Of a stretch of DNA of 39,944 nt, positions 10,862 to 32,923 are shown one piece after another. Where the stretch lies: contig CADDZE010000036.1 of the NCBI GenBank assembly GCA_902812465.1, positions 1 to 39,944 of the forward strand, in the 5' to 3' direction. The position numbers were made by a program, and so were the translations under genes. The DNA is from Acidobacteriota bacterium (lineage in GTDB: Bacteria > Acidobacteriota > Terriglobia > UBA7540). The first letter of the stretch is position 1. Each line of letters starts with the position of its first letter. The notes under the pieces were generated by a model. The model worked only from the letters and a program-made list of their open reading frames with translations. It made no database searches and was not told the DNA's origin.

Positions 10862-10967
10862 GCGAGTTTCCCTACTCGATGCCAACCTTGAACTTTGCCC
10901 TGTGGCCCGGTGCTCCGGGGACCCCAGCGCTGCCAGAGCCCCCGTCGCGAAGTGACGTTCACGAGCT

Positions 10968-12014
10968 CTACGCCGCGGGCAAACACAGAGTAAACTTCGT
11001 GCCCTTCCCCAGGACACTCTCAACCTGAAGAACGCCGTCGTGCTGCTCGACGATTCTTTTGCTGACCGTCAGGCCCAAACCCGGGCTCCCCTGTCGTGTC
11101 GTGAACCCCGCTTCGAAGATTTGCGCCAGGCGCTCCGGCGGTATACCAGGACCAGAGTCTTCAAATTCGATCTGCACAGGGTCGGCTGCGCCAAGCCGCG
11201 GCGGCTTTAGCCGGATGACCAGCGAGTGGCCCGGCTGCATGGCGCGAAACGCGTTGATCGCGAGGTTGAAGAACACCTGCTGCAGCGCGTAAGGGTCGGC
11301 CAGAATGGCCACTTCACCATCAGGCGGCTCGAAGATCACGCCGACGCTTCGCTGCAGAGCCAAGGGCTGCAGGAACTCCACCGTACCCGCAAGAAGTTGG
11401 GCCGCATCCACCCGTAAACGCTCGACGGGTGCCTGCGTGTAGAACCGAAGAACGTTGTTGACGGTGGCGGCGAGTGCGCGCAAGCCAGCCAGCAAGTGCA
11501 CGGCCCATTGCGACACGTCGGCCCGGTCGCGGCAGGCATCTTTGATCAGCTCGGCGAAAAGCTCCATACTGCCTAGCGGGTTGCGGATCTCGTGTGCCAG
11601 AACCGCCGCCATCTCACCCAAAGCTTGCAGCCGCCGCACTCGCTCACCGGAGAGATCATTCCTGGGAGCAGCCGGCGACGGGGAGTCTGGCTGACCGGCG
11701 GCGGTAACAGAATGGTCCTCCGCGCCGTCTGCTCGCGTATCCTGAGCTCGCTGCCTGCTCTCCGGACCCTTTGGACTAGGCAAGTGAACAGGCTTGGAAT
11801 GGCCAGGCGAAAACCTCAGAATGGCTATCCCATCCTGGACTGGACGTTGAACTGACGGAGAGCCCGACAGGGGATCTGTGACCAGCGGCACCGCAGAGAC
11901 CCGTTGCCGGGCAGGCAAGGCTGGCATAAGGCCACCGTAAACAGCACGGAAGCTGCCAAGCCTGAGCGCCGTGATTAAGATTTCTCTCATGCGCCGCTCT
12001 GCCGGCCACACCAT
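10968..12014 (-). CDS. Soluble sensor histidine kinase, FleS/FlgS-like
   Basis: About 348 residues, with no membrane segment. The first 115 or so residues are low-complexity (Pro, Arg, Ser rich) and unrecognised, with no clear PAS domain. The kinase core is complete: H-box AAVLAHEIRNPLGSMELF with H141, N-box QVFFNLAINAFRAM, G1 box DSGPGIP and G2 box GSPGLGLTVSKRIV. It should autophosphorylate and pass phosphate to the FleR-like activator whose gene starts about 105 bases downstream. The frame extends to 12083, but that would overlap the preceding gene by 53 bases. ATG at 12014 leaves a 16-base gap; ATG at 11990 is also possible. Flagellar role is inferred from position. Confidence 0.88.
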   Translation of the reverse strand: MVWPAERRMREILITALRLGSFRAVYGGLMPALPARQRVSAVPLVTDPLSGSPSVQRPVQDGIAILRFSPGHSKPVHLPSPKGPESRQRAQDTRADGAEDHSVTAAGQPDSPSPAAPRNDLSGERVRRLQALGEMAAVLAHEIRNPLGSMELFAELIKDACRDRADVSQWAVHLLAGLRALAATVNNVLRFYTQAPVERLRVDAAQLLAGTVEFLQPLALQRSVGVIFEPPDGEVAILADPYALQQVFFNLAINAFRAMQPGHSLVIRLKPPRLGAADPVQIEFEDSGPGIPPERLAQIFEAGFTTRQGSPGLGLTVSKRIVEQHDGVLQVESVLGKGTKFTLCLPAA

Positions 12015-12030
12015 TCCATCGGTCGCCGCT

Positions 12031-13299
12031 TCATTTCCAGGGCGTCTGCAGACAGATGTGCTCGGGCCCGATTTCCTGAGCATCCTCAGACAGGATGAAG
12101 GCCCGTTCCATCACGTGCCTGAGCTCGCGGACATTTCCTAGCCAGCGATGCTGCTCGAGCAGCTTCCCGGCGGCAGGAGAGATTGCCTTAGGTGGAGTCC
12201 GTGCTTCTGCGCACAGCTCGGCGAGAAATGCAACGCCAAGGGGAAGAATATCCTGGACGCGCTTGCGCAGCGGCAGGATGTCAATGGGAAACACGGAGAT
12301 GCGGTAGTAGAGGTCTTCGCGGAAGACCTTTTCGGCGACGCGGCGTGAAAGGTCGGCGTTGGTGGCCGCAATCACGCGGACGTCCACGCGGATGATGTCT
12401 GAGCCTCCTAGCCGTTGCACCTCGCCCTCCTGAAGAAAGCGGAGCAGCTTCGCTTGCATGCTTAGCGGGAGCTCTCCCACCTCGTCCAGGAAGAGCGTGC
12501 CGCCATGGGCAGCGTGGATGCGGCCCAGGCGTGACTGAAAGGCACCCGTAAACGCCCCGCGGGCGTAGCCGAACAGCTCGGCTTCGAGCAGCGTCTCGGG
12601 AATCGCGGCGCAGTTGACGGCGATGAAGGGCTGCCTAGAACGCGGGCCCAGCAGGTGAATGGCTCGTGCCACGAGTTCCTTGCCGGTGCCCGTCTCGCCC
12701 GTGACCAGAACGGTGGTGGGGCGCGGAGCCACTAGGCGTGCCAGCCGGTAGACGCGCTGCATGGCTTTGCTGCTTCCGATCATGCCGGGTAGCGGCTCGG
12801 CCGTTCTCGCCCCAGGCTGAGATTCCGATGAAAAGCGAGCGAGCGGATGAGCGGCGAACCGCGATGACGCAGCCTTGTCCAGGGGAAGGGCGGAGTCAGC
12901 CGGCGTGCCTCCGCTGGGATTCGTTTCCGTCCCACGGAGACCGCGGCGCGCGCTCCGCAACTGCTCCAGGAGCTCCTCGATGTGGCCAGTCGCGGGCGCG
13001 GACCCTACTGGAACCGCGCCTTGGGAATCCACGACCACCACTTCGACCTGGGGATGCCGATGGCGAATGGTGCTGACCAACTCACCGGCGTCGAGGTCGG
13101 GGAGCCAGCGGTCAAGGAGCAAGATGCGGCACCTGCCCGCCTCGATCTTAGCCAGTGCGTCGGCCCCTCCCTCGGCCTCCTCGACGGAGCACTGGGATGA
13201 GCGCAGCAGGTCCAGCAGTTGCCGGCGAAAGGCCGGGTTGGAGCTGGCGACTACGGCACTTAACGCATCACTCAGTAGCGGTGACTCTAGCCAGGACAT
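12031..13299 (-). CDS. Sigma-54 activator lacking a DNA-binding domain, degenerate receiver (FlgR-like)
   Basis: A 422-residue protein with a receiver-like domain, a linker of about 50 residues and a full sigma-54 AAA+ domain: P-loop GETGTGKE at 201-208, GAFTGA at 248-253, Walker B LFLDEVGE near 269-276, arginine-finger region FREDLYYRISVFP. It ends right after the AAA+ lid (EIGPEHICLQTPWK), so the Fis helix-turn-helix normally found is missing. The receiver keeps D63 (LLLDRWLPD), but the acidic pair after strand 1 is replaced by S19-S20 and the strand-5 Lys is absent. Activators without a DNA-binding domain are known, such as FlgR of Helicobacter pylori, and act from solution. The downstream sequence in other frames shows no lost HTH. 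It may pair with the full activator, perhaps as a mixed oligomer. No clear ribosome site is seen at the ATG. Confidence 0.88.
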   Translation of the reverse strand: MSWLESPLLSDALSAVVASSNPAFRRQLLDLLRSSQCSVEEAEGGADALAKIEAGRCRILLLDRWLPDLDAGELVSTIRHRHPQVEVVVVDSQGAVPVGSAPATGHIEELLEQLRSARRGLRGTETNPSGGTPADSALPLDKAASSRFAAHPLARFSSESQPGARTAEPLPGMIGSSKAMQRVYRLARLVAPRPTTVLVTGETGTGKELVARAIHLLGPRSRQPFIAVNCAAIPETLLEAELFGYARGAFTGAFQSRLGRIHAAHGGTLFLDEVGELPLSMQAKLLRFLQEGEVQRLGGSDIIRVDVRVIAATNADLSRRVAEKVFREDLYYRISVFPIDILPLRKRVQDILPLGVAFLAELCAEARTPPKAISPAAGKLLEQHRWLGNVRELRHVMERAFILSEDAQEIGPEHICLQTPWK

Positions 13300-13416
13300 A
13301 GGAGCAAGACCTGAAGGGCCAGGGCTGAAGGCCGAACAATCGGCCCCAGAACCATGGATTCGTTGGATTAGCGCCGCGCTAGCTTGTTGGCTTGATGCCT
13401 CGATCCCTTTCGCTGC

Positions 13417-14145
13417 TCACCGGCGGCGCCAGTTCCTCTCGCGGCTCAGCGGCAGCGTCATCCGGACCATGCAGCCTTCCCCGAAGCGCGGCCGGACCTC
13501 GAACGTTCCGCCCAGGGATTCGATCATCCGGCGGGCCACCACCCAGTTCGACGCCTTTTCGGGGCCGCTGTCCAGACCCGGCGCGACGACGGACCAATCG
13601 AGGTCCTCCGTGGAGCAAGGACCCTGGTCCGAGATGGCCACGATGGCTGCGTGTTTGTTGGTCGAAACGGCGATTTCAATGTCGGATCTCCGCGGGCTGC
13701 GGGCCAACGCGCGGTCCAGGGTCTTGGTGATGGCCTTCTCGAAGCGACTCCACGATGTCTTCACATAGCACTCCCGCTCGGCCCTTATTTGGATCCCTAC
13801 GCCCAACCGGTCGGCGATGGGCGTCAAAACTTCGGCAGCACGGCTGACCACTTCGACCAGAGGCACGTCATGGCTGCCGGAGGCGGGTCGACGCATCTCT
13901 TCCATTTCGCGAAACGAGTGCACCACGCGGCTCAAGCGATCTAGCTCGATCAGCGATGCTTCCAGCAGGGCGCGATACTCCGCCGCAGTGTGCTCTGACT
14001 GAAGCACTAATTCCATCTCCCCTTGTAGGACGGTCAGCGGCTGGCTGAGCTGGTGCACCAGAGTGGCAGCCAGGTCGGAGGACCTGGGGCGTGTCCGCTG
14101 GCTGCGCGTCTCGTGTATGGACCCGGTTCGGGCATGGCGACCCAT
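13417..14145 (-). CDS. Degenerate histidine-kinase-like protein
   Basis: A 242-residue soluble protein with a recognisable dimerisation/phosphotransfer helix, LAATLVHQLSQPLTVLQGEM, with H31 followed by Gln-Leu rather than Glu-Leu/Ile. The ATP-binding half is eroded. The N-box position reads FEKAITKTLDRALARS without the catalytic Asn, G1 reads SDQGPCSTE instead of D-x-G-x-G, and no Gly-rich G2 lid is present (ASNWVVARRMIESLGGTFEV keeps only the end of that region). The C-terminus RPRFGEGCMVRMTLPL is still kinase-like. It may act as a phosphotransfer or docking partner rather than a kinase. A strong ribosome site (AAAGGAGG) lies ahead of the ATG. It follows the OmpR-type regulator gene by 89 bases. 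Confidence 0.8.
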   Translation of the reverse strand: MGRHARTGSIHETRSQRTRPRSSDLAATLVHQLSQPLTVLQGEMELVLQSEHTAAEYRALLEASLIELDRLSRVVHSFREMEEMRRPASGSHDVPLVEVVSRAAEVLTPIADRLGVGIQIRAERECYVKTSWSRFEKAITKTLDRALARSPRRSDIEIAVSTNKHAAIVAISDQGPCSTEDLDWSVVAPGLDSGPEKASNWVVARRMIESLGGTFEVRPRFGEGCMVRMTLPLSRERNWRRR

Positions 14146-14234
14146 TGATTCCCATCCTCCTTTCTGCGAGCGCTCCGGAAGCCATCTTCTTCACCGAACC
14201 AGAAGATGGCATGTGCAGCGCGACTTCTGTGTGT

Positions 14235-14933
14235 TTACGACCGACTCGGTTCTGCTGATGTCCCCACGCGGTAACCTTTGCCGCGAACTGTGTGAATGAG
14301 CTTGGTTTCGAACCCTTCGTCAATCTTCTTGCGCAGGTAGTTGATGTAGACATCTACGACGTTCGTCATCGTGTCGCCCGCCAGCTTCCACACGTGCTCG
14401 ATGATGGAGGCACGTGACGCGCAGCGGCCGCCTTGTTTCATCAGGAATTCGAGCAGTGCAAACTCCTTCGGTGTTAGCTCAATGGTCCTGCCGCCGCGCC
14501 GCACTAAGCGCTCCACCCGGTTCAGTTCCAGGTCCGCGACGCGCAATCGTGCATCCTGGGCAGGACCCCTTCGCCGCAGCAAAGCACGAAGGCGAGCGGC
14601 GAGTTCTGAGTAGGCGAATGGCTTGGGCAAAAAGTCGTCTGCTCCCAGGTCCAGGGTCTGCACCTTGTCCTCAAAGCAGGATCGTGAAGTTAGCACCAGC
14701 ACGGGCAGAAGCGAGTCCTTGGCCCGCAGATATTTCAGGACTTCCAAGCCGTCGGTGCCGGGCAAATTGAGGTCCAGCACCATCAGGTCGTAACCTCCTG
14801 CTTCCAGGCGCTTCTTCGCTTCGTTTCCATCTGCCACCAACTCCGCTTGGTAATGCTCGGCTTCGAGACTCTTCTCGAGAAATCTCCCGACCGGGCCGTC
14901 ATCCTCGACGATTAGCACCCGATAAGGCATCAT
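14235..14933 (-). CDS. OmpR/PhoB-family response regulator
   Basis: A 232-residue two-domain regulator. The receiver has D11-D12, phospho-acceptor D54 (MVLDLNLPGTDG) and K104 (LPKPFAY). The C-terminal winged helix contains IELTPKEFALLEFLM, VVDVYINYLRKKID and IHTVRGKGYRVG, all typical of OmpR/PhoB proteins. It should bind direct-repeat DNA sites as a dimer when phosphorylated. Either of two adjacent ATGs (14933, 14930) can serve; neither has a visible Shine-Dalgarno sequence. It is the first gene of the regulatory run leading to flgB, and the 528 bases upstream hold no gene. The only kinase-like neighbour (13417-14145) is degenerate, so the true phosphate donor may be elsewhere. Confidence 0.94.
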   Translation of the reverse strand: MMPYRVLIVEDDGPVGRFLEKSLEAEHYQAELVADGNEAKKRLEAGGYDLMVLDLNLPGTDGLEVLKYLRAKDSLLPVLVLTSRSCFEDKVQTLDLGADDFLPKPFAYSELAARLRALLRRRGPAQDARLRVADLELNRVERLVRRGGRTIELTPKEFALLEFLMKQGGRCASRASIIEHVWKLAGDTMTNVVDVYINYLRKKIDEGFETKLIHTVRGKGYRVGTSAEPSRS

Positions 14934-15461: not shown

Positions 15462-16310
15462 TTAGGAATGTGGAGGCGGAGAGTGATGTGTTGCTAAGCC
15501 TCCGGGTGAATCGGCGGACGGGAGCGCGGCAGGTGCTAGCACAACGATATCTACCCTCCGGTTCAAGGCGCGTCCTTCAGGTGTAGTGTTAGTGGCGACA
15601 GGGCGGTACTCCGCATAGCCGGCAGCGGACAGCCGCCAGGGAGAGACTCCATAACGGGAGATCAGCAGCTCCACAATGCGGGTTGCGCGGGCGGTGGACA
15701 ATTCCCAGTTGGAAGCGAAGTTCGCGTTATGGATAGGAACGTCGTCCGTGTGACCCTCCACGCGAAGAGATTCCGGCCGGTTCCGCAAAATGTTTGCGAT
15801 CCGGGCCAGGACCTCGTCTGCTCCCGGACGAAGCGTGGCCGAGCCGCTGTCAAAGAAGCCCACCTCTTGCAGACTGATCACCATCCCCTCGCGCGTCCTC
15901 CTGACGTTCACCAAGCCGCGGTTGATTTCGTGGGACAACACACGCTCGAGTTCGGCTTGCATCTGGGACTGCGCGGGGTTGGAGCCTGCCGGTATCGGTC
16001 CGCCCGTTGGCGACGAGACGACACGACCGAGGGCTTCGGTGCGCGCCGCGTTTTCCACCATTTGGACGTTTGAGAACGGCATTGGCTCTGAGGCCGCCAG
16101 CGCGGCCCGCGTGTTCGACGCCTCAAAGATGCCCATCGACTGAAACGCCACCTGAATGGCCAGGGCGATTTTGCCCACCTTTCGCTTATCCACCTGCGAG
16201 GAGGCAAACATGACCACAAAGAACGCAAAGAGCAAAGTGATAAAGTCTGCGTATGAGACAAGCCACCGCTCGTGATTGGCGTGGCTTGCATGCTTCTTCC
16301 TGCGGCTCAT
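15462..16310 (-). CDS. motB: Flagellar motor stator protein MotB
   Basis: MotB couples ion flow through the stator to rotation and anchors it to peptidoglycan. The 282 residues start with a basic tail, then one membrane helix SYADFITLLFAFFVVMFASS carrying the ion-binding D22. A periplasmic plug/linker and an OmpA-type peptidoglycan-binding domain follow (RVEGHTDDVPIHNANFASNW, ELSTARATRIVELL, GRALNRRVDIVVL). Length and order match MotB. The ATG overlaps the motA stop by four bases (ATGA), so translation is coupled. Protons are the likelier ion by default, but the sequence does not settle this. It is the last gene before the 528-base gene-free region. Confidence 0.96.
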   Translation of the reverse strand: MSRRKKHASHANHERWLVSYADFITLLFAFFVVMFASSQVDKRKVGKIALAIQVAFQSMGIFEASNTRAALAASEPMPFSNVQMVENAARTEALGRVVSSPTGGPIPAGSNPAQSQMQAELERVLSHEINRGLVNVRRTREGMVISLQEVGFFDSGSATLRPGADEVLARIANILRNRPESLRVEGHTDDVPIHNANFASNWELSTARATRIVELLISRYGVSPWRLSAAGYAEYRPVATNTTPEGRALNRRVDIVVLAPAALPSADSPGGLATHHSPPPHS

Positions 16311-17080
16311 TTGGCCTGCTCCAAGGCTTTGGCGCGCTCCTGGCCGAGGAAGCCGCGCAGCTTCGTCTCCACCATACGCGGATTCATGCCCTCGAGGATT
16401 GAGATGACGCCCTCGAGGATCATCTCGCGCGTCAATTGTTCCTCGCGGATGCGAATCTTGAGTTTGCCGCCGGAGGGCAAAAAGAAGATGTTAGCGGAGG
16501 CGACGCCATAGATGGTGGCCACGAAGGCCACCGCGATGCCGCGCCCGACCTCTTCGATATTGTCCAAGTGCTGCATCACTTGGATCAGGCCGAGGACAGC
16601 GCCGATAATGCCGATGGTGGGCGCGAAGCCTCCCGCCGACTCGAACACCTGGGGGAGCTTCTCTTCGTGCTCAGCTTGATTCTCCATTTCAAGCTCCATG
16701 ATCTTGCGGAGTTCCTGGGGCTCCGTGCCGTCGACAGCCAACATGAGAGATTTCTTAAGAAACGGGTTCTGAATTTGTTCCAAGTCGCGGTCCAGCGCCA
16801 CAATGCCTTCCTTGCGGGCTTTGTTGGCATAGCCGACGATCTCGGTAATAAGCGCTTCCATGTTGGTCGAGCGCTCGAAGAAGACGTGCGCCAAGCGGGC
16901 GAAGCTTGCCATCACCACAGGGAGCGGGAACTGGATCATCACCGCGCCGATTGTGCCCCCCAAGACGATCATGGCGGCGGTGGGTTGTAAAATCTGGCTA
17001 ATCTTGCCGCCCTCGATGGTCATCCCGCCCAGAATACCGGCGGCGGCAAGAAGAAGTCCGCCAAGGGTCGCCTTATCCAC
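16307..17080 (-). CDS. motA: Flagellar motor stator protein MotA
   Basis: The 257-residue stator subunit has four membrane segments: near residues 5-22 (LGGLLLAAAGILGGM), 33-52 (PTAAMIVLGGTIGAVMIQF), about 150-172 (GGFAPTIGIIGAVLGLIQVM) and about 180-200 (GRGIAVAFVATIYGVASANI). The proline of FAPTIGIIGAVLGL is the conserved one in segment 3. The large cytoplasmic loop (YANKARKEGIVALDRDLEQI and beyond) carries the charged residues that contact FliG. It lies between flbD (12 bases upstream) and motB (4-base overlap). MotP/PomA types of similar size differ little; the gene-symbol choice follows the proton-type convention. Confidence 0.95.
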   Translation of the reverse strand: MDKATLGGLLLAAAGILGGMTIEGGKISQILQPTAAMIVLGGTIGAVMIQFPLPVVMASFARLAHVFFERSTNMEALITEIVGYANKARKEGIVALDRDLEQIQNPFLKKSLMLAVDGTEPQELRKIMELEMENQAEHEEKLPQVFESAGGFAPTIGIIGAVLGLIQVMQHLDNIEEVGRGIAVAFVATIYGVASANIFFLPSGGKLKIRIREEQLTREMILEGVISILEGMNPRMVETKLRGFLGQERAKALEQAK

Positions 17081-17092
17081 TGGGTCGGCACC

Positions 17093-17350
17093 TCACTTGC
17101 TCGTTTCGGGTTCGCCGTCGCGTTGAGCGCCTGACCAAGCCGCGATGGGAGGAAGGGAGCCTAAGGAGGTTGGCAGTAGCCGCTGCCGGAACTTAACGAT
17201 CTGCTCCAGAATCTCTTCCGTGCTTTCCAGCACTACCACCTTCTCTCCGTTTATCAAGGTAATGACCGTGTCCGGCGCGTTCTCGATGAACTCAATGAGG
17301 TCTGAGTTCACCACCAGCGGTTGACGGTTAAGCCGTGTCAAGCGAATCAT
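17093..17350 (-). CDS. flbD: FlbD family flagellar protein
   Basis: An 85-residue soluble protein of the small FlbD family (distinct from the Caulobacter regulator of the same name). The diagnostic core is MIRLTRLNRQPLVVNSDLIE, FIENAPDTVITLINGEKVVV and ESTEEILEQIVKFRQRLLP; the last 25 residues are a variable tail. Its biochemical role is not settled; it is almost always found next to motA and motB or with basal-body genes. The frame is open to 17407, but family proteins begin at the ATG at 17350, which has CAGGGTGA just upstream. motA begins 12 bases after its stop. Confidence 0.93.
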   Translation of the reverse strand: MIRLTRLNRQPLVVNSDLIEFIENAPDTVITLINGEKVVVLESTEEILEQIVKFRQRLLPTSLGSLPPIAAWSGAQRDGEPETSK

Positions 17351-17741
17351 GTTCACCCTGTCTTCCCTTCGGCCAGCGGTTGTGCACACGAATAGTTCCC
17401 GCGCCACAAGCCCCGTTTCTCTCTATCGGCGGATCGGCGCAAAACTTCGCAGCACGGACCTGAGGTCGTGTGCATCTCGCCTCATTCCCGGCATTCGCAA
17501 TGCCAACTCGGCTTCGCGCCGATATCATTAATTTCGGGGCACAGCAGCCCTCTGGCTCCCATTCGTGCCAGCCCGCCGCGCCTCTTTGAGCCCGCTGAAG
17601 GGGTGGTCCCCGGCGTGCAATCAAAGCGGGTGTGGAGAGCCAAAGACCTGAGTATCCGTATTGCCTCCGGCAAGTCCTACCCACAATCCGGGCGGGAATT
17701 GCCGTCAGCGTGCCGGATTCGCCAACTCGAGGGGAGAAGGC
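17351..17741. other. Divergent intergenic region between flbD and the first glycosyltransferase
   Basis: No protein-like frame is seen in these 391 bases. They hold the divergent control signals for flbD-motAB (minus) and the glycosyltransferase genes (plus): a candidate sigma-28 -10 element at 17423-17430 and a perfect 6-bp palindrome GGCATT-CGC-AATGCC at 17491-17505. A GCCGATAT on the plus strand at 17518-17525 lacks a matching TAAA. Confidence 0.5.
17423..17449 (-). promoter_or_regulatory. Candidate sigma-28 promoter for flbD-motA-motB
   Basis: On the minus strand GCCGATAG (17430-17423) is identical to the -10 element in front of the flagellin gene. Fifteen bases upstream lies CGAA (17449-17446) rather than TAAA, so the -35 is poor. 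Transcription would start near 17416, about 66 bases before flbD. Motor genes are sigma-28 dependent in several bacteria, which supports but does not prove this. Confidence 0.4.
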
Positions 17742-19019
17742 TTGACTTCATCCAGCATTCAGACATTAACAGCGGAAAGCAGTTTAAACAGCCTAGTGAG
17801 CCAGGTGGCGGGTGGGGCGTTAGCGGATAAAGGCACGTGCGGTACGCCGCCGGAAGGACAGCCGGTGTCGCCGAGCCCTGAGGCAACGGCCGCGCCTCCT
17901 GGGATTGCCTTTCAGACCTTCATCTATAACGCCAGTGGCTATGCCGAGGAGGCTTACGCCATCGTACTGGGGTTGGCCCGCCGCGGCCTTCCCGTCCGGC
18001 TGCTTCCCCAACTGGCAGGGTCCGACAAGTGTCACCTGCTCGCTTCCCAAGCTCGGGCGACGCTTGAGGTCCTAAAGAACCGAAAGATCGACCTGGCCCG
18101 CGGCGTTTACTTCCAACATGTCCCGGCCTACGCCTTTAACGTTCACCTCTCAGGGCGCTACCGCGTCGGCAGGACGATGTTTGAAAGTGATCGCCTGCCT
18201 GATGGCTGGGCAGAGCGCTGCCAGGCGATGGACGAGGTTTGGGTACCCAGCAGCTTCAACCAGCACACGTTCGCTGCCAGCGGTGTGGATGCTCACCGAT
18301 TGCGCGTGGTGCCGGCTGGCGTGGATACTAAGCTCTTCCGACCCGGCGCACCCCCTCTTTCATTGCCACAAGCTCGCGGCTTCAATTTCTTGTCGATCTT
18401 CGAGTGGACGCCGCGCAAGGCGCCTGAAGTTTTGCTCGAAGCGTACTTGCGAGAGTTCAAGCCGGATGAGGACGTTTGTCTAGTGCTCAAGACCTATCAG
18501 CACCACGACCCGCTAGAGGACGTCGAGGCCAAGATCCTCTACTACATCGAGCACGAGGTTGGGCTCCAGCTGGAGGATGCCCCCTCCATCGTTCTTTTGA
18601 GCGGCTCGATAGAGCAGGAGCGCATGCCGCACCTTTACTGCGCTTGCCAGGGCTTCGTCTTGCCCAGCCGCGGGGAAGGCTACGGCCGCCCGTATCTGGA
18701 AGCCATGGCGTGTGGTTTGCCGGTCATTGCCACCCGCTGGAGCGGCCAACTGGACTTCCTTAGCGACGCCAACAGCTATCTGGTGGAGATCGAGGGTCTT
18801 ACAGCAGCTCCCCCGGACGTCAGCACCGATCTTTACTTCGGTCACTACTGGGCTCAGCCGAGCGTCGAGAGCCTGCGCCAACAGATGCGTCGCGTGTTTA
18901 CCCACCCCGAGGAAGCTCGCCAAAAGGCGGCCATTGGCCGCGAGCTGATGGTGCGCGAATGGGACTGGGAGGTGGTCCTCGAGCGCTGGGTGGAGGAGTT
19001 TCGGCGTCTACTGGAGTAG
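17742..19019 (+). CDS. GT4-type (GT-B fold) glycosyltransferase
   Basis: About 425 residues; a retaining GT-B glycosyltransferase that would use a nucleotide sugar in the cytoplasm. Family signatures are MDEVWVPSSFNQHTFAASGV, VVPAGVDTKLFRPG, the acceptor-side FLSIFEWTPRKAPEVLLEAY, and the donor-binding end PSRGEGYGRPYLEAMACGLP (E-x7-E type motif). No membrane segment or signal peptide is seen. The longest frame opens with TTG at 17661 without a ribosome site. TTG at 17742 has GGGGAGAAGG just before it and is preferred; the conserved part begins only around residue 55 from there. Its neighbours are two further glycosyltransferases and flagellin, which suggests filament glycosylation (inference). 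Confidence 0.88.
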   Translation: MTSSSIQTLTAESSLNSLVSQVAGGALADKGTCGTPPEGQPVSPSPEATAAPPGIAFQTFIYNASGYAEEAYAIVLGLARRGLPVRLLPQLAGSDKCHLLASQARATLEVLKNRKIDLARGVYFQHVPAYAFNVHLSGRYRVGRTMFESDRLPDGWAERCQAMDEVWVPSSFNQHTFAASGVDAHRLRVVPAGVDTKLFRPGAPPLSLPQARGFNFLSIFEWTPRKAPEVLLEAYLREFKPDEDVCLVLKTYQHHDPLEDVEAKILYYIEHEVGLQLEDAPSIVLLSGSIEQERMPHLYCACQGFVLPSRGEGYGRPYLEAMACGLPVIATRWSGQLDFLSDANSYLVEIEGLTAAPPDVSTDLYFGHYWAQPSVESLRQQMRRVFTHPEEARQKAAIGRELMVREWDWEVVLERWVEEFRRLLE

Positions 19020-19100
19020 CGAGTAACACAGCCCGGGCACGAGGCGAAGCTGGAGCGGATAACGCAAAACAAGTCCCGCGCTACGCATGGAGGAGGACGC

Positions 19101-21365
19101 TTGCCGGTCTACGCCGTGGATGGACAGTCCCTGGCGGTGAACGCCGCCTACCAACGCAGTCCGGTTGTGGCGCTCGCCACGGACTGCCATGCCGGTACGG
19201 TTCCGAGGGCCGTTGAAGCGGTGGCGCAGTTCAGCGTATCTGATCCCGTGAGGGTCATGAACCACCACCTGGTGCCCGCGGGGGCGGACGGAGTCGTGAT
19301 CTGGCTGAAAGGCGATAAGTTGCTGCAGGGAAGTCCGGCCGCAATCCGGCGCACCCTTCTCGCTCCCTCGAGCCGTACGTTCGTTCCGGTGCACCTGCCT
19401 TGCCTGCCTGAACTGGATTTGATCGGGCTACAGCCACGTATATTTACTTCGCGGCCAGCGTCGGACCGCGTTAGCCAGAGCTACCGGGTGGCGGCTGACC
19501 CTTGCTCTTCGTCGGAGATGGAAGACACCCTGCGCGACCTTCCCGAAGACTGGGGTCAACTCTATGCAGCACTCTTGGCGAGCTCACGCGACCCGCAGGG
19601 GGCCGCAAGCAGGTTGGCGCGCGCGGCTGATACCACCTCCCTCGCAGCACCCTTTCGCGCCTTGGCTTGGCGCAACCTGGCAGTGCTCTTGCTGCGCTAC
19701 GCGGACTTCTCGACGGCTGAGCGCCTACTCGCCGCCGGCCTGGGCGTCTTTCCCGACTATAGCGAGCTGCTTTACCTGAAGGGGCTCGTGGCGCTGCGCC
19801 AAGGGAGCATCCAGGAGGCCTGGACCTCCCTTTGCAACGCGGCCGAGAGCACCGCTTGCGTCTCCGTGAGCGGCGGCTGGCAGGCTTTCGGCCATTTGCA
19901 GTGGCTCTTGGCCTCCATGGCGGAGCAGGCGGGCAATTTAGAAGCAGCGCTCCCCTACTATCTGCGCGCCGTACGACTAACTCCCGCCCACCAGCCGTCT
20001 CTGCTCTCGATTCTGAAGAGGCGCTGGCCTGCCCCTGCTGTCGCGGTGGTGCAACCGATCCTTTGCGGCGTCGCTCGCCGAGAGCCGCAGTATCTGGAAG
20101 CAGTGTTTTATTTTTTGCTCCTGCACCGCCAGACGGACGCCGCGCGCCGGCTGCTCCATCAGGCGCAGCTTCCCGAAGACCGGCACCAGTTTCTGCAGAG
20201 CAAGCTGGATCAGGTGGCGGTTGCCCAGCAGCCCGGCCCCCGTCTGCAAGGCGCGAAGGCGGGGGTCTGCCTCACCGGTCCCTTCCTCGCGCACTCCAGT
20301 GTGGCCCGAATTAATCGCGAACTCGCCGCCATCCTGGTCCAGGATCCTGAGCTGGATTTGGAATTGCGTCCTCACGGCTGGGTCTCGCTCCCCGGCGCGG
20401 CGCCCACCCAGGACCAGGTGGTGAAGGTGGGGTTGAAGAACCTCGTTCCAGGCCTGGATCTGACGCTTCGTCTGCATTGGCCGCCGGACTTCTCGCCTCC
20501 TGCCCGCGGCAAGCTCGCAGTGCTGCTGCCGTGGGAATTCGGAGGCTTGCCGCGCCGCTGGGTGGCGGAGATCGAGCGCCACGTGGACGAGCTTTGGGTG
20601 CCGTCTAATTTCGTGCGAAGCGTGGCGCTGGGCGCGGGAATCAGCGAACGTCAGATTCACGTGATTCCCTATGGCCTCGACCCCGAGGTGTTCAGGCCCC
20701 TCGGCCCTGCGTGGCGTCCGGCAGGGTGCCGAACCTTTATCTTCCTTTTTGTCGGGGGAGCCATTCAGCGCAAGGGGATTGACCTGCTCGTTCAGGCCTA
20801 CCGCGAAGCCTTCGCGGCGACCGATGACGTGAGCTTGGTTGTTAAGGATATTGGTTCGAGCACGTTTTATCGTCACGCTTCCTGGGTTGGAAGACTGCAG
20901 GAGCTGGCGCGAAGCCCAGGCTATCCTCACCTGGTGGTGATCGCGGAAGAAATGGACGACCAGAGGCTCGCCGCCCTCTACCGCGGTTGTGATGTGCTGG
21001 TGCTGCCTTACCGGGGCGAGGGCTTCGGTATGCCCCTGATTGAGGCTATGGCCTGCGGCAAGCCAGTCCTCACGACGGGGCTCGGCCCAGCTCGCGATTT
21101 CTGCCACCCCGATCATGCCTGGTTTGTTCCGGCCCGTGTCGTGCCCGTGGCAGACGAGCCTCCGCCCTTCGGGGAAATGGCTGGCGACTACACATGGTTT
21201 GAGCCCGACGTCGGTGAACTGGCGCGCCTGCTGCGTTACGCCTACGCGCACCCGGGCGAGGCGGCCGCGCGGGGCAGGGAAGCGGCCAGCCGAATTCGCG
21301 CGTCACATGCCTGGCCGGTTCTTGCGCCACTTTACCTTGAGCGTGTGCACGCGCTGATCGCTTAA
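19101..21365 (+). CDS. Three-part protein: unknown N-terminal domain, TPR repeats, GT4-type glycosyltransferase
   Basis: A 754-residue cytoplasmic protein. Residues 1 to about 130 form a domain I do not recognise (MPVYAVDGQSLAVN to RIFTSRPASD). Residues about 150-370 are helical TPR-like repeats (RNLAVLLLRYADFSTAERLL, YLKGLVALRQGSIQEAWTSL, EQAGNLEAALPYYLRAVRLT). From about 385 a GT-B glycosyltransferase follows, with HVDELWVPSNFVRSVALGAG, VIPYGLDPEVFRPLG, FLFVGGAIQRKGIDLLVQAY and PYRGEGFGMPLIEAMACGKP. The start is TTG at 19101 with a strong GGAGGAGG site. The TPR part probably holds a protein acceptor. It resembles the preceding protein in its glycosyltransferase half. Probably in one operon with its neighbours (gap 81 bases). 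Confidence 0.87.
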   Translation: MPVYAVDGQSLAVNAAYQRSPVVALATDCHAGTVPRAVEAVAQFSVSDPVRVMNHHLVPAGADGVVIWLKGDKLLQGSPAAIRRTLLAPSSRTFVPVHLPCLPELDLIGLQPRIFTSRPASDRVSQSYRVAADPCSSSEMEDTLRDLPEDWGQLYAALLASSRDPQGAASRLARAADTTSLAAPFRALAWRNLAVLLLRYADFSTAERLLAAGLGVFPDYSELLYLKGLVALRQGSIQEAWTSLCNAAESTACVSVSGGWQAFGHLQWLLASMAEQAGNLEAALPYYLRAVRLTPAHQPSLLSILKRRWPAPAVAVVQPILCGVARREPQYLEAVFYFLLLHRQTDAARRLLHQAQLPEDRHQFLQSKLDQVAVAQQPGPRLQGAKAGVCLTGPFLAHSSVARINRELAAILVQDPELDLELRPHGWVSLPGAAPTQDQVVKVGLKNLVPGLDLTLRLHWPPDFSPPARGKLAVLLPWEFGGLPRRWVAEIERHVDELWVPSNFVRSVALGAGISERQIHVIPYGLDPEVFRPLGPAWRPAGCRTFIFLFVGGAIQRKGIDLLVQAYREAFAATDDVSLVVKDIGSSTFYRHASWVGRLQELARSPGYPHLVVIAEEMDDQRLAALYRGCDVLVLPYRGEGFGMPLIEAMACGKPVLTTGLGPARDFCHPDHAWFVPARVVPVADEPPPFGEMAGDYTWFEPDVGELARLLRYAYAHPGEAAARGREAASRIRASHAWPVLAPLYLERVHALIA

Positions 21366-21466
21366 GGGCGGCCCGTGGGTGGCGCGAGCCGCGCCGCCGA
21401 GCCGGGAGAAAAGCGGCAGCAGCTGATCCAGTTCAGGGCAGGCCCGAGCTGGCGCTGCGGGAGTTT

Positions 21467-22837
21467 GTGCCCTCCATGTCCACCCTCGCCCTGTCGATGA
21501 TTGTGCGCGACGCCGAAGCCACGCTCGCTTCCTGTTTGGAGAGCGTCCGCGCCGCTGTGGACGAAATCGTCATCGGCGACACTGGTTCGAGTGACTCGAC
21601 CCCCGCCATCGCCGCCCGTTATGGTGCCAGGTTCTATTCGATTCCCTGGGAAAACGATTTTGCCCGAGCCCGCAACCTCGTGCTGGAGCAGGTGCGTGCT
21701 GACTGGGTGTTGGCTCTGGATGCCGACGAAGTGCTGGATGAGGAAGGCGTGTGCCATCTCCGTTCGCACCTCGATAACCCAGGCATCGCCGGTTACATCG
21801 TGCCCATCTGGAACTACGTATGGCGGACCGCTGACTACCTGTGGGACAAGCCGGCTCAACCCAATCCCGGGCGGCTTGAGGCGGCGCGCCGCTACCCGGC
21901 TTACGTCGAGCATGAGAATGTGCGGTTGTTCCGGCGTCATCCGCAAATTCGTTTTGTGGGCCGCATTCATGAGACGGTGGGAACCTGTATCCAGCGCGCC
22001 GGTTTGACGCTCGGCCGCGCCGCTTTCATCATCCACCACTTCGGGCTGGCGGCGACTCCGGAACAGCAGCTGGAGAAGCATCTTCGCTACCTCGAGCTGA
22101 GCCGCCTGAAGGCGCGCGAAATGCCCGGCAACGCCCAGGCGCAATTCGAGCTCGGCGTCGAGCTTTTCAAGCAGCCGCTGCGTACCCAAGAAGCGCTTGC
22201 GTGCTTCGAGCGCGCCCGTGAGCTCGATGCCCGACTCTCACCCGCTTGGGTTTTCTCGGCGCTGGCTCTGATGCGGCTTCAGCGTGACGCGGAGGCTTTG
22301 GCTTGTCTGAAGCGCGCCAGGGGCTCAAGCGGCTCGTCGGCACTTATCGCCCAGACGGAGGGAGACGCGCACTATAACCTCGGCGACTTTGACACGGCTT
22401 GCCGCGCCTACGGCCGCGCCCTGGCCTGTCCGGAGAGCACGGCCGAGGTGGAGAGCAAACTGGGCCTGGCCGAGGTGCGCGCCGGCCGAACCGAATCGGG
22501 GCTTGGGCACTTGCGAAGAGCTCTCGAGCGCGAGCCGGCCGCCAGCGCTCACTACGACCGGTTGATCAGTGCCCTGGTCTGGCTCAACCGCTTGGCGGAG
22601 GCAGCGGAGGTGGCCGAACACAAGCTGAAGGCCATCGACCCTCCGCCTGAGGCCTTCCTCCGAGCTGCAAGCCTCCGTGCGCGATGCGGCGACTGGACGC
22701 GAGCCATCGAACTGCTTGGCACAGGCCTGCGCCGCTTTCCCCAGGCCCCACGGCTCCAGCAGGCCCTTAGCGAATTGCAGGCGGCAGAGGGATGCAAAAA
22801 GGCGGAGCTCTCGGAAACGAGTACCAAAGTACTATGA
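21467..22837 (+). CDS. GT2-family glycosyltransferase with C-terminal TPR repeats
   Basis: A 456-residue protein. The N-terminal GT-A domain (residues 5 to about 210) reads LALSMIVRDAEATLASCLES, VDEIVIGDTGSSDST, and has the metal-binding D85-A-D87 in WVLALDADEVLDEEG; this subgroup acts on proteins or lipids from the cytoplasm. From about residue 215 the chain is TPR repeats (NAQAQFELGVELFKQPLRTQ, EALACFERARELDARLSPAW, DAHYNLGDFDTACRAYGRAL, GLAEVRAGRTESGLGHLRRA). GTG at 21467 and ATG at 21476 are both possible starts; the GGGAG upstream is too near one and too far from the other. The gene stops 149 bases before flagellin. A role in flagellin glycosylation is inferred from position only. Confidence 0.88.
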   Translation: MPSMSTLALSMIVRDAEATLASCLESVRAAVDEIVIGDTGSSDSTPAIAARYGARFYSIPWENDFARARNLVLEQVRADWVLALDADEVLDEEGVCHLRSHLDNPGIAGYIVPIWNYVWRTADYLWDKPAQPNPGRLEAARRYPAYVEHENVRLFRRHPQIRFVGRIHETVGTCIQRAGLTLGRAAFIIHHFGLAATPEQQLEKHLRYLELSRLKAREMPGNAQAQFELGVELFKQPLRTQEALACFERARELDARLSPAWVFSALALMRLQRDAEALACLKRARGSSGSSALIAQTEGDAHYNLGDFDTACRAYGRALACPESTAEVESKLGLAEVRAGRTESGLGHLRRALEREPAASAHYDRLISALVWLNRLAEAAEVAEHKLKAIDPPPEAFLRAASLRARCGDWTRAIELLGTGLRRFPQAPRLQQALSELQAAEGCKKAELSETSTKVL

Positions 22838-22854: not shown

Positions 22855-22881
22855 TAAAGCGATCGCTATCCTTGCCGATAG
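22855..22881 (+). promoter_or_regulatory. Sigma-28 (FliA) promoter of the flagellin gene
   Basis: TAAA (22855-22858), exactly 15 bases, then GCCGATAG (22874-22881). The classic sigma-28 consensus is TAAA-N15-GCCGATAA, so eleven of twelve defined positions match, with the correct spacing. Transcription should start near 22888, giving a leader of about 100 bases. The promoter begins 17 bases after the preceding stop codon, so flagellin is transcribed separately from the glycosyltransferases. A sigma-28 gene is therefore expected elsewhere in the genome. Confidence 0.88.
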
Positions 22882-22917: not shown

Positions 22918-22945
22918 CGGGAGCACCCAATCTTAAGTGCTCCCG
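22918..22945 (+). promoter_or_regulatory. Hairpin in the flagellin mRNA leader
   Basis: CGGGAGCAC (22918-22926) and GTGCTCCCG (22937-22945) form a perfect 9-bp stem with a 10-base loop, 41 bases before the flagellin start. The upstream GGTGC near 22903-22907 can instead pair with GCACC (22923-22927), so two alternative folds exist. No T-run follows. It may stabilise the mRNA or control translation, as leader elements of flagellin genes do in other bacteria. Confidence 0.5.
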
Positions 22946-22986: not shown

Positions 22987-23802
22987 ATGGGACTCAGCCT
23001 ACTGAACAACATCGCCTCGTTGCAAGGTCAAAACCAGATCAGCCTCGTGTCCAGGTCGTTGCAGACCACCTTGTTCCGCCTGTCGTCTGGTTCACGGCTC
23101 AATTCGGGGGCGGATGATCCGGCCGGACTGTCCATTGCCGACCTGGAACAAGCCAGCATCAACGCCCTGCAGCAATCGGCCAGCAACGCGAATACTGGCA
23201 TCGGCCTCGCGCAGACGGCCGACGGCTCCTTTGCCCAGGTGACAACGCTGCTAGACCGGGCGGTGACGATCGCTACCGAAGCGGCGAACGGCGGCCTCAG
23301 CGCCAACCAGTTTACCGCGCTGGACAACGAGTTTACCGCCATCAAGAACGAAATCGACCGCATCGGCACGTCGACCACTTTCAACAACACGTCGGTGTTC
23401 TCTGCCGCTACCACCAGCATCTTTCTCAGTGACGCAGGTGCTAGCAGCTTCATTGGCATCACCATTGGCACCCTTAGTTCCTCCGGCCTGGGGCTGAACG
23501 GTACAGACCTGCTCACCACGGCCGACGCCCAATCCGCGCTCTCGGCGATCGATGCTGCCGTCGGTACCGTGGCGCTCGATCGAGGCAAACTGGGCGCCGC
23601 GCTGAACCGCCTGCAGAGCGCGCAGAACGTCATCCAGACGCAGGTGCAGAACATTAGCGCTGCAGAGGACTTGATTCGCGCTGCTAATATCCCCCAGGAA
23701 GTCTCCAACCTGGCCAAGTACTCGGTGCTGGAGCAAACCGGCATCGCCGCCTTGACCCAGGCGAACCAGGTGACACAGTCGATCCTGGGTCTGTTCCGGT
23801 AG
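22987..23802 (+). CDS. fliC: Flagellin (short, D0-D1 type)
   Basis: A 271-residue filament protein containing only the two conserved ends. The N-terminal D0/D1 part reads MGLSLLNNIASLQGQNQISL, LQTTLFRLSSGSRLNSGADD and PAGLSIADLEQASINALQQS. The C-terminal part reads GKLGAALNRLQSAQNVIQTQ, NISAAEDLIRAANIPQEVSN and IAALTQANQVTQSILGLFR. The middle is only about 80 Ser/Thr/Gly-rich residues, so D2/D3 outer domains are absent. The Ser/Thr-rich stretch (TSTTFNNTSVFSAATTSIFL) offers possible O-glycosylation sites. AAGGAGAA lies upstream of the ATG. It has its own sigma-28 promoter and is followed by flaG. Confidence 0.96.
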   Translation: MGLSLLNNIASLQGQNQISLVSRSLQTTLFRLSSGSRLNSGADDPAGLSIADLEQASINALQQSASNANTGIGLAQTADGSFAQVTTLLDRAVTIATEAANGGLSANQFTALDNEFTAIKNEIDRIGTSTTFNNTSVFSAATTSIFLSDAGASSFIGITIGTLSSSGLGLNGTDLLTTADAQSALSAIDAAVGTVALDRGKLGAALNRLQSAQNVIQTQVQNISAAEDLIRAANIPQEVSNLAKYSVLEQTGIAALTQANQVTQSILGLFR

Positions 23803-23874: not shown

Positions 23875-24339
23875 ATGAGACTCGACGCTGTTCAAGCCGC
23901 CTCCGAGTTAAGCGGCGGGGGGCGTGTTGCGGTTTCTGAGCAACCCGTGCCCCCCGCCCAGGAGGTCCTGGTCCGCCCGCGGCATGTTTCCCCGGCTCGC
24001 GTCCCGGCCGACGTGCGTCAGGCCACGGGGGCCGGAACGCCAGCGCCGGCTGAGGACGCTGTCCAAGCTCGAGACCGTGTCGAGTTGTCCCAGCCTAAGT
24101 TGCCCGTCGAACGCAACATCGTTTACAAGGTCGACCAAGTCAGCCACGAGCTCTATTTTCAGATCGTAGACAGCCGGTCGGGAAAAGTCGTTTCGCAAGT
24201 CCCGCCGGAAGCGGTGCTGGCGGAGGAACGCCACATCACCCAGCTCCTCGACAACCTGCAGAAGGTGCGGGAGCAAGAACAGCAACAGAACCATTCAGCA
24301 GCCAAGCCGCGGACGGAGCGGTCAGGGAACAGGAGCTAG
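23875..24339 (+). CDS. flaG: FlaG family protein
   Basis: A 154-residue protein whose C-terminal part carries the FlaG signature: VERNIVYKVDQVSHELYFQI, VDSRSGKVVSQVPPEAVL, then a charged helix (HITQLLDNLQKVREQEQQQN). The first 75 residues are a variable Pro/Ala-rich segment. FlaG proteins influence filament length; the mechanism is not well defined. It lies between flagellin and fliD, the usual FlaG place, and ends two bases before the fliD start. No strong ribosome site is seen at the ATG. Confidence 0.92.
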   Translation: MRLDAVQAASELSGGGRVAVSEQPVPPAQEVLVRPRHVSPARVPADVRQATGAGTPAPAEDAVQARDRVELSQPKLPVERNIVYKVDQVSHELYFQIVDSRSGKVVSQVPPEAVLAEERHITQLLDNLQKVREQEQQQNHSAAKPRTERSGNRS

Positions 24340-24341
24340 GT

Positions 24342-25712
24342 GTGGGTAGCGGCGGATTCGGAGTCAATCTCAACACGGCGGGCACGGGTCTGGGAACGGG
24401 CATCGATGTGCAGAGCACCGTCCAGCAACTCGTGCAGGCGCTGCGGGCTCCCGAGCAGCCCCTGCTGCAGCAGCAGAGCCTTTTCACCTCGCAAGCTTCC
24501 GCGCTCAACAACATCACCGGCCTGCTGAACTCGCTCCAGGAAGCGGTCCAATCGTTGCAGGACCCAGCCGGTCCACTGGCGGCGCGCCTTGCCACCTCCT
24601 CCAATGAGAACGTGCTGAGGGCGTCAGCGGCGCCGGGAACGGCACTGGGGAGCCACACCATCGTCGTTAACTCCCTGGCTACCACCTCGTCCTATTACAG
24701 CGGGGCGCTGGCCACCGGCGACACCACCTTCGGCACGGGCCAGTTCACCCTGCAGGTGGGTTCCAACGCGCCGGTGGTGATCAACGTCGACAACACGAAC
24801 AACACTCTGAACTCGCTGGCCAGCTCCATCAACAGCCAGAATCTCGGCGTGACGGCCAGTGTCCTCACCGATGTTACTGGAGCACGCCTCTCCCTTGTCA
24901 GCAATACGAGCGGAGCCGCGGGCGACCTCACCATTTCGGGCAACACCACGGGCCTGAGCCTGACCAAGGGTGTGACTGGCGTGAACGCCTCTTTGACGGT
25001 CGACGGCGTCAACATTCAGAGTGCCAGCAACACGGTGAAGGGCGCCATCCCGGGCGTCACCCTGAATCTCATCGGGACGTCGTCGGCGCCCGTCACGCTG
25101 GCGATTACGCCGGATACGAATCAGGCGGCGAACGCCATCAACAGCTTCGTCTCCGCCTACAACGCCGTCGCGCAGGCCATCAACTCGCAGTTCACCTACA
25201 CGCCGGGCACCACCAATCAGCCGCCGCTGTTCGCCGATTCGACGCTGGCGGGGGTGCAGCTGAGTCTGGCCAACGATGTGAATTTTTCCCTTAGTGGCAA
25301 CGGGGGCATCACTAACCTTGCGTCCCTGGGCGTCAACCTGCAGCAAGACGGTACCCTGTCCGTGGACAGCAGCGCCCTCAACGCCGCCCTGAACAACAGC
25401 TACGCTAACGTTCAGGCCTTCTTTCAGCAGAGCGGCCCACAGGGCGGATTTGCAACCCATTTCGCCAACGACCTGGCGGCTCAAACCGATCCCACGCGCG
25501 GCCCGCTGTTTATCGATCTGCAAGGCGTCAACTCCAGCAAGACTGCCGTTGCCGACGAGATCAACAACTTCGAGGCGCAGATCGCGCAGCAGCAGCAAGC
25601 GCTCCTGGTCGAGTACAGCCAGGTCAACGCAACGCTGCAAACGCTGCCGCTGTTGCTCGAGCAAATTCAGAGCCAGCTGAGCGGGCTCGGCCAGGTTACT
25701 TCTTCACGCTGA
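24342..25712 (+). CDS. fliD: Flagellar filament cap protein FliD
   Basis: FliD forms the cap on the growing filament and helps fold flagellin. The 456-residue protein starts with GTG at 24342, two bases after flaG, with AGGAG upstream. The N-terminal FliD domain reads GTGIDVQSTVQQLVQALRAP, the central domain repeats beta-rich blocks (GSHTIVVNSLATTSSYYSGA, NTLNSLASSINSQNLGVTAS), and the C-terminal FliD domain reads AINSFVSAYNAVAQAINSQF, ADSTLAGVQLSLAN and SLGVNLQQDGTLSVDSSALN, ending in a coiled coil (EINNFEAQIAQQQQALLVEY). The chain is rich in Asn, Ser and Thr. Length is typical. Confidence 0.96.
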   Translation: MGSGGFGVNLNTAGTGLGTGIDVQSTVQQLVQALRAPEQPLLQQQSLFTSQASALNNITGLLNSLQEAVQSLQDPAGPLAARLATSSNENVLRASAAPGTALGSHTIVVNSLATTSSYYSGALATGDTTFGTGQFTLQVGSNAPVVINVDNTNNTLNSLASSINSQNLGVTASVLTDVTGARLSLVSNTSGAAGDLTISGNTTGLSLTKGVTGVNASLTVDGVNIQSASNTVKGAIPGVTLNLIGTSSAPVTLAITPDTNQAANAINSFVSAYNAVAQAINSQFTYTPGTTNQPPLFADSTLAGVQLSLANDVNFSLSGNGGITNLASLGVNLQQDGTLSVDSSALNAALNNSYANVQAFFQQSGPQGGFATHFANDLAAQTDPTRGPLFIDLQGVNSSKTAVADEINNFEAQIAQQQQALLVEYSQVNATLQTLPLLLEQIQSQLSGLGQVTSSR

Positions 25713-25756: not shown

Positions 25757-26194
25757 ATGAAGACGAATCCTGCCCAAACCTACCGCGTGCTATCGGCGCA
25801 AAGTTCGAACCCGGTCGGCATCGTCGTGCAAGCATACGACCAGATCCTGATGGCCATCTACGCCGCCATACGCGCCATCGAGCAACGCGATATTGAAACC
25901 AAGACGGCTGAGCTCAACCGCGCGCTGGCGCTGATGGCCCACCTGCAAGGCGCCCTGGACTTCGAGCGGGGCGGCAAGGTGGCCAAAAACCTCGAAACGT
26001 TCTATATCGTCCAGCGGGGCCAGATTCTGGCGGCCAGCGCCCAACTCTCCACCGAGTTGCTGCGCTCGGTCGCTGAGGCTTTTCGTTCGATGCGCGAGGC
26101 TTGGGAAGAAGTGGAGCGTTCCGTCAGCGTAGCGGTTGCTTCCACCCGGCCTTCGCCATCGCCGTCCGTGGAGCCCGCCGGCTGGCAAGCCTGA
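25757..26194 (+). CDS. fliS: Flagellin export chaperone FliS
   Basis: A 145-residue helical chaperone that keeps flagellin unpolymerised until export. Conserved FliS pieces are YRVLSAQSSNPVGIVVQAYD, ILMAIYAAIRAIEQRDIETK, AHLQGALDFERGGKVAKNLE and TFYIVQRGQILAAS. The last 25 residues are a Ser/Pro tail not typical of the family. This 3' end overlaps the hybrid kinase gene on the other strand by 71 bases (26124-26194). Last gene of the flagellin-flaG-fliD-fliS run, 44 bases after fliD. Confidence 0.95.
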   Translation: MKTNPAQTYRVLSAQSSNPVGIVVQAYDQILMAIYAAIRAIEQRDIETKTAELNRALALMAHLQGALDFERGGKVAKNLETFYIVQRGQILAASAQLSTELLRSVAEAFRSMREAWEEVERSVSVAVASTRPSPSPSVEPAGWQA

Positions 26195-32764: not shown

Positions 32765-32825
32765 GGAGGTCGCGAACGGCCCGCTCTGCTTTCGGGGGCC
32801 AGTGCTGCACTTGCGGAGCCCTGGT

Positions 32826-32849
32826 GGCGCGCGCACGATGCGCCCCTAC
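32826..32849. repeat. Possible REP-like palindromic fragment
   Basis: GGCGC and GCGCC flank GCGCACGAT, and the adjoining CCCTACA completes a string that reads TGTAGGGGCGCATCGTGCGC on the minus strand. TAGGGGCGC-type palindromic strings recur as intergenic repeats in some bacterial genomes. Only one copy is visible in this window, so repeat status is not shown. Confidence 0.3.
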
Positions 32850-32923
32850 AAGGACACTCCCACGCTCTTTTCTTGCCGCAGGGTTGGCCTGCGGGTCGGC
32901 GTGAGCGCGTCCGCTTGCCTCGC

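Follow-up and report, generated by a model that had tools for sequence, protein, structure and literature searches.

What do three glycosyltransferase genes do immediately upstream of a flagellin gene? The question is raised by a stretch of 39,944 nucleotides (contig CADDZE010000036.1 of assembly GCA_902812465.1, hereafter the window) from an Acidobacteriota bacterium of the class Terriglobia. The genes encode a single-domain family 4 glycosyltransferase (GT4a), a fusion in which an N-terminal domain, X, is followed by tetratricopeptide repeats (TPR) and a second family 4 domain (X-TPR-GT4b), and a family 2 glycosyltransferase carrying TPR (GT2-TPR). We propose that the three genes probably form a flagellin glycosylation cassette in which all three enzymes act on flagellin. 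Judged by comparative genomics, the only basis used here, the locus is by far best explained as a flagellin glycosylation cassette.

Open reading frames and Pfam searches placed GT4a, X-TPR-GT4b, and GT2-TPR head to tail on the same strand upstream of fliC-flaG-fliD-fliS and detected TPR in two of the three enzymes, in agreement on both counts with an earlier description made from the letters alone (the sequence-only reading). GT4a matched PF13692 (8e-14) and PF00534 (5e-12). X-TPR-GT4b gave TPR matches around residues 155-297 (PF13428, 7e-7) and a GT4 match at residues 546-677 (PF00534, 1.3e-19), and no Pfam match was obtained for residues 1-150. For GT2-TPR, the GT2 match covered residues 12-157 (PF00535, 2.5e-18) and the TPR match residues ~220-440 (PF13428, 6e-12). 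Residues E640 and E648 of X-TPR-GT4b, invariant in eight of eight aligned homologues, presumably represent the GT4 E-x7-E motif; D85, D87, and E88 of GT2-TPR, invariant in seven of seven, are taken to be the GT2 DxD motif. The reading frame of GT4a opens at 17661 or 17742, with a good ribosome-binding site before the TTG codon at 17742. The TTG start of X-TPR-GT4b at 19101 is also preceded by a good site, and GT2-TPR starts at GTG 21467 or, as its relatives do, at ATG 21476. Homologues of X-TPR-GT4b share 38-46% identity with it, and in 10 other genomes a GT4a homologue (49-60% identity) adjoins the gene of this X-TPR-GT4 build. The arrangement is not due to chance because the identical gene order was found again in other genera.

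The distribution of X-TPR-GT4 was followed in a class survey of 299 Terriglobia genomes and in a phylum-wide sample of 297 genomes; the genome of the window (G000) comprises 3.9 Mb on 190 contigs. An X-TPR profile (A4) with a cut-off of 1e-6 matched 24 class genomes. Fourteen of these, with matches of 1e-37 or better, were accepted as carriers; the other 10 were dropped, their matches being 2e-10 and weaker and covering TPR alone. Among the carriers, the copy of G454 is cut by the contig and retains the later part only, and those of G544 and G334 are without part of the start of X. The carriers are spread over five family groups, and three relatives with this protein are Acidobacteria or Terriglobia metagenome-assembled genomes, represented by contigs CADDZC010000030.1, JAKBLM010000009.1, and JASHON010000147.1. 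Co-occurrence with flagellin, proposed as a check by the sequence-only reading, was evident: Flagellin_N was found in all 14 carriers as against 160 of the 299 class genomes, and within the window's own family X-TPR-GT4 was present in 7 of 14 flagellin-positive genomes and in zero flagellin-negative ones. In the phylum-wide sample, which has few or no members of the carrier families, a search with X alone matched 1 of the 297 genomes, namely that of the window. BLAST with the whole of X-TPR-GT4b against this sample returned, outside the own genome and among the matches listed, GT4-domain matches only, and the best matches that the whole protein gave in plasmids and elsewhere in the phylum were, among those listed, likewise confined to the GT4 domain.

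The DNA around all 14 X-TPR-GT4 loci was read. X-TPR-GT4 lay amid flagellar genes in 12 of them; a regular association with a polysaccharide locus, which the sequence-only reading had named as an argument against itself, was looked for and not seen. At L056-L061, the cassette is followed by fliC, fliD, and fliS, with motAB/flbD on the opposite side where the stretch is long enough. L084, L086, and L088 (cut) repeat the layout of the window, L062 has X-TPR-GT4 beside flbD-motAB with fliC on a different contig, and L087 has it beside the FliF operon. One of the exceptions, L083, is a 5.8-kb contig holding the three glycosyltransferases and one further frame. GT4a adjoins X-TPR-GT4 in 11 of the 14 loci, and GT2-TPR occurs in the same stretch in 12, the G334 copy being intact.

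The cassette occupies a defined position. The gap between FlbD and fliC measured 1.6-10.2 kb in 11 of the 12 cassette genomes in which both could be placed (the twelfth, G241, had 212 bp); 50 other genomes had a median gap of 151 bp, and 47 of them stayed below 1.5 kb. Thus, the cassette is the filling of one fixed junction. In relatives, the slot or its immediate surroundings also contain an NAD-dependent epimerase (L056), FkbM methyltransferases (L057, L085, and L086), other methyltransferases (L058, L059, and L107), a GDP-mannose dehydratase together with a DegT aminotransferase (L084), and a GHMP kinase, accompanied by a nucleotidyltransferase in L060 and alone in L108 and L110. Partners of these kinds would be expected of a glycan pathway.

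The constant element across the loci is GT2-TPR. Its profile matched 32 of the 299 class genomes at 1e-30, and in 29 of these the match spanned the greater part of its length. In 14 genomes (G000, G300, G306, G309, G310, G320, G334, G364, G369, G404, G424, G454, G525, and G544) it immediately precedes fliC in the same orientation; it is the divergent neighbor of fliC in G367 and G376, lies beyond motAB in G241 and beside motAB in G317, where fliC is elsewhere, and is found at a contig end in G370. Behind GT2-TPR in G424 and G525, where X-TPR-GT4 is absent, a methyltransferase-GT4-GT2 protein of 1.3 thousand amino acids is encoded (L107:7491-11465 and L108:8962-12915, with TPR in L108 only). 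In G480, the gene for GT2-TPR (L106:7908-9419) has those for a response regulator and for a DUF6600 protein as its neighbors.

The persistence of GT2-TPR directly before fliC where the other two genes are absent (G424 and G525) or at another place (G364 and G544) could mean that it alone acts on flagellin and that GT4a and X-TPR-GT4b share the locus but work together in another pathway. We regard this as rather unlikely. The slot of G424 and G525 is not vacant but holds the large methyltransferase-GT4-GT2 protein, which looks like a replacement for the extension machinery, and all 14 genomes with X-TPR-GT4 also carry GT2-TPR.

The presence of GT2-TPR was then compared with the size of flagellin. 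FliC length was read in 94 of the 160 flagellin-positive genomes, a non-random choice based on the best-scoring listed flagellins; G380 and G480 had no flagellin to read, and G398, G346, and G562, which contain GT2-TPR fragments, were not counted as bearing GT2-TPR. Flagellin was short (265-307 amino acids) in all 27 genomes with a full-length GT2-TPR anywhere in the genome and long in none. The 67 genomes without it comprised 16 with short flagellin, 50 with long flagellin (369-1041 amino acids), and one, G398, with long flagellin and a GT2-TPR remnant (Fisher test 1e-12, kinship ignored). In a FliD tree of 78 genomes, nine independent pairs differed in GT2-TPR on well supported branches. Short flagellin went with GT2-TPR in five to seven of these pairs and the opposite was seen in none, a borderline result (median p 0.03, range 0.016-0.0625). 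When only locus-adjacent copies were considered (a set that here and in the Ser/Thr analysis includes G317, G241, the divergent G367 and G376, and G370 with its contig end), four pairs were left and significance was not reached (p 0.25-0.5). The remnant in G398 (L135:4168-4701), a frame of 177 amino acids corresponding to the last TPR part of GT2-TPR, is situated between flbD and the gene for a FliC of 421 amino acids and represents in-place decay of the cassette.

With a profile of our own and by reading the stretch around fliC, proteins related to TPR proteins whose C-terminal half is GT9-like were found near fliC in 8 of the 67 genomes lacking a full-length GT2-TPR (G327, G330, G347, G377, G397, G401, G452, and G488), all with long flagellins. 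The Pfam GT9 match of these FlmG-like proteins was weak and near the cut-off (6e-5 to 2e-3 for four proteins from three genomes). Their presence suggests that some long flagellins are glycosylated too. The idea that the glycan replaces the outer domain of flagellin was rejected, given the borderline outcome of the kinship-controlled pairs, the reported lack of a length pattern in Geobacillus (PMC5109656), and the FlmG-like proteins near long flagellins. The data describe how the kinds of transferase are divided between flagellin size classes and do not amount to a trade-off. As a separate observation, a pyridoxal-dependent decarboxylase-TPR fusion is encoded divergently to a long flagellin in two loci of the window's own family (genus g168; L121:2771-5869 and L116:7850-11269) and adjoins TPR-GT9-like proteins in L121. 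Such a gene is odd at a flagellin locus and may indicate that flagellin is modified with an amine-bearing group.

Several observations weigh against flagellin glycosylation by the cassette. The cassette of the window is without a sugar-nucleotide gene and has none of the partner genes of its relatives, and its sugar donors would therefore have to come from elsewhere in the genome. It is also not simply one operon with fliC, since fliC probably has its own promoter: a site upstream of fliC differs by one mismatch from the sigma-28 consensus, TAAA-N15-GCCGATAG, similar sites lie ~90-180 bp upstream of fliC in most genomes read, and a scan of the window found none before the cassette. The center of the window's flagellin (residues 134-184, 51 residues) contains 35% Ser+Thr, which is not distinctive and falls within the range found in the class for short flagellins, whether or not the cassette is present. 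Among short flagellins, the median central Ser+Thr content was 40.4% when GT2-TPR was in or beside the flagellar locus (n = 23) and 33.9% when it was not (n = 16; p 0.002, uncorrected for kinship), a weak signal compatible with glycosylation. In G364, the GT4a/X-TPR-GT4 pair is away from flagellin, with only a CheB gene nearby, upstream of it (L085). GT2-TPR is far from fliC in several genomes of family f2, and no flagellin was found in G480 despite its GT2-TPR.

The separate pair in G364 and the flagellin-less G480 would also suit enzymes that decorate something other than flagellin (FliD, FlaG, a different secreted protein, or a surface polysaccharide) and are placed at fliC for the sake of regulation. 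We consider this very unlikely in view of the 12 of 14 X-TPR-GT4 loci amid flagellar genes and the way in which the presence of GT2-TPR follows the size class of flagellin. A regulatory role of GT2-TPR like that of the antirepressor GmaR, which is bifunctional (PMC9638930), would accord with the position of the cassette among sigma-54 activators and histidine kinases but is most improbable: with 456 residues against the 637 of GmaR, GT2-TPR has no room for the antirepressor part, its DxD-type residues are invariant, two more glycosyltransferases and, in relatives, sugar-modifying genes accompany it, and MogR had no match in the own genome, a weak negative because the control was silent as well.

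For the flagellin glycosylation cassette, comparative support was strong, consisting of the conserved synteny, the insertion between FlbD and fliC, the sugar-modifying genes in the slot, and the GmaR-like GT2-TPR. The sequence-only reading is thereby supported in part: the module that it postulated stands as the likely interpretation, a flagellin-holding role of TPR is plausible by analogy, and its argument from a Ser/Thr-rich middle of flagellin has lost force, a content of 35% being ordinary for short flagellins of the class. GT2-TPR would most likely act in the cytoplasm and add the first sugar to Ser/Thr in an exposed FliC loop, and its TPR, by analogy with GmaR, FlmG, and Maf-1, would hold flagellin during this transfer. 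Conservation in cassette-bearing genomes makes T131, T135, S136, T142, T143, S144, and T162 candidate acceptor residues in this loop. GT4a and X-TPR-GT4b would then extend the sugar. X-TPR-GT4b might also read the protein via X and TPR, the latter possibly holding flagellin in this enzyme too, and decorated FliC would be passed to FliS and exported. Acceptor, order of steps, linkage, roles of TPR and X, and enzyme activity are what we infer in this scheme. If it is correct, the locus encodes a minimal system of three enzymes whose protein-binding repeats may steer extension as well as initiation, and short flagellins with GT2-TPR, long ones with TPR-GT9, and the decayed copy offer a natural comparison for what sets the transferase of a filament.

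X and the X-TPR-GT4 build are the new parts of the system. No meaningful match to X was obtained in Pfam with 11 members or in the PDB. A resemblance to a decayed GT2 domain, noticed by eye, was rejected after hhalign returned a probability of 0.2% (E 0.28). The AlphaFold model of X-TPR-GT4b, with a mean predicted local distance difference test score (pLDDT) of 56.5 and ~25-38 for X, was too poor for a structure search. For the GT2-TPR model (pLDDT 66.8), the best 50 Foldseek rows were TPR or TPR-like proteins, OGT included, and no conclusion is drawn from them. As a tentative and rather doubtful extension, X-TPR-GT4b could be a new kind of chain extender, in which X and TPR recognize flagellin already carrying its first sugar and thereby bring the addition of a later sugar, too, under the control of the protein, and the transferase kind in Terriglobia would match the flagellin, GT2-TPR serving short and TPR-GT9 long ones, with G398 as a loss that left a remnant.

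The features of the locus are compiled in Table 1. The genes flbD, motA, and motB diverge from the cassette upstream of it, and the part of the window that lies upstream forms a flagellar cluster with FliF, FliG, FliH, FliI, and FliJ (Pfam). The regulators encoded amid flagellar genes at 9530-14933 comprise one of OmpR type and two each of sigma-54 activators and histidine kinases. Sigma-54-like sites in the window were not above chance, and an Rfam search gave no match. Adjacent phosphoketolase and acetate kinase genes were noted at 30365-34177.

Table 1. Features of the cassette and its flagellar surroundings (positions in the window)
Feature	Positions	Strand	Description	Evidence
GT4a	17742..19019	+	Single-domain GT-B family 4 glycosyltransferase, 425 amino acids, TTG start	Pfam
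X-TPR-GT4b	19101..21365	+	Fusion of 754 amino acids; X 1-150, TPR ~155-375, GT4 ~385-754	Pfam, homologues
X	19101..19550	+	N-terminal domain of X-TPR-GT4b	Conserved in 11 aligned homologues
GT2-TPR	21467..22837	+	GmaR-like, 456 amino acids; GT2 ~residues 7-200, TPR ~210-440	Pfam, phmmer
Sigma-28-like promoter	22855..22881	+	Upstream of fliC	1 mismatch to TAAA-N15-GCCGATAA
Hairpin	22919..22944	+	Perfect 8-bp hairpin in fliC leader, between sigma-28-like site and start codon	Fold z -2.1
fliC	22987..23802	+	Flagellin of 271 amino acids without large outer domain, likely acceptor	Flagellin_N 1e-25, Flagellin_C 5e-16
flaG	23875..24339	+		PF03646 5e-6
fliD	24342..25712	+	Filament cap	Pfam
fliS	25757..26194	+	Flagellin chaperone	Pfam
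flbD	17093..17407	-	Other edge of insertion slot	PF06289 1e-25
motA	16307-17080	-		Pfam
motB	15462-16310	-		Pfam

The gene for GmaR in Listeria presumably adjoins that for flagellin, a position shared by GT2-TPR, which directly precedes fliC here and in 13 other genomes. Both proteins have an N-terminal GT2 domain followed by TPR, and their glycosyltransferase halves are related (phmmer 5e-23 against the GmaR domain 22ao). GmaR transfers N-acetylglucosamine to flagellin and contains TPR, linker, and antirepressor parts (PMC9638930). GT2-TPR differs in being shorter, in belonging to another phylum, and in being accompanied by two GT4 enzymes. It would thus work like the glycosyltransferase half of GmaR without being classed as GmaR. 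SunS (7msp, phmmer 3e-9) has a GT2 domain of the same broad group, whereas GT2-TPR stands in a flagellar context; against TIGR04195, the SunS family model, it scored 41.6 bits (7e-11), far from the cut-off of 350.

X-TPR-GT4b shares with FlmG of Caulobacter the joining of TPR to a GT-B domain and the flagellin context. It is unlike FlmG in its additional X before TPR and in its GT-B part, which is GT4, and is not assigned to FlmG. The FlmG layout itself is represented in Terriglobia by the separate TPR-GT9-like proteins near fliC in some long-flagellin relatives. A search of the own genome for Maf (PF01973) gave no match, the control matching in four archaea only, and two weak partial matches to PF03102 (NeuB-type) may be other enzymes of that fold. 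No description of flagellin glycosylation in Acidobacteriota was found in the literature searched, which mostly excludes subscription journals.

The TPR of FlmG bind flagellins and are needed for their efficient glycosylation (PMC7591256), Maf-1 is reported to use C-terminal TPR for flagellin, and Clostridium GT2 enzymes that bear TPR are predicted to act as flagellin transferases (PMC13317340). In Geobacillus and Clostridium, islands that combine GT2 and GT4 enzymes with FkbM and other methyltransferases occupy a fixed slot of the flagellar locus (PMC5109656, PMC13317340). The cassette resembles these islands in its combination of GT2 and GT4, in the methyltransferases of its relatives, and in the variable content of a fixed slot; it differs in that the slot is FlbD|fliC and that a cassette may consist of three glycosyltransferases only. 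Because GmaR, FlmG, Maf-1, and these islands have been described, the class of system is already known; new are X, the X-TPR-GT4 build, and the partition of transferase kinds by flagellin size.

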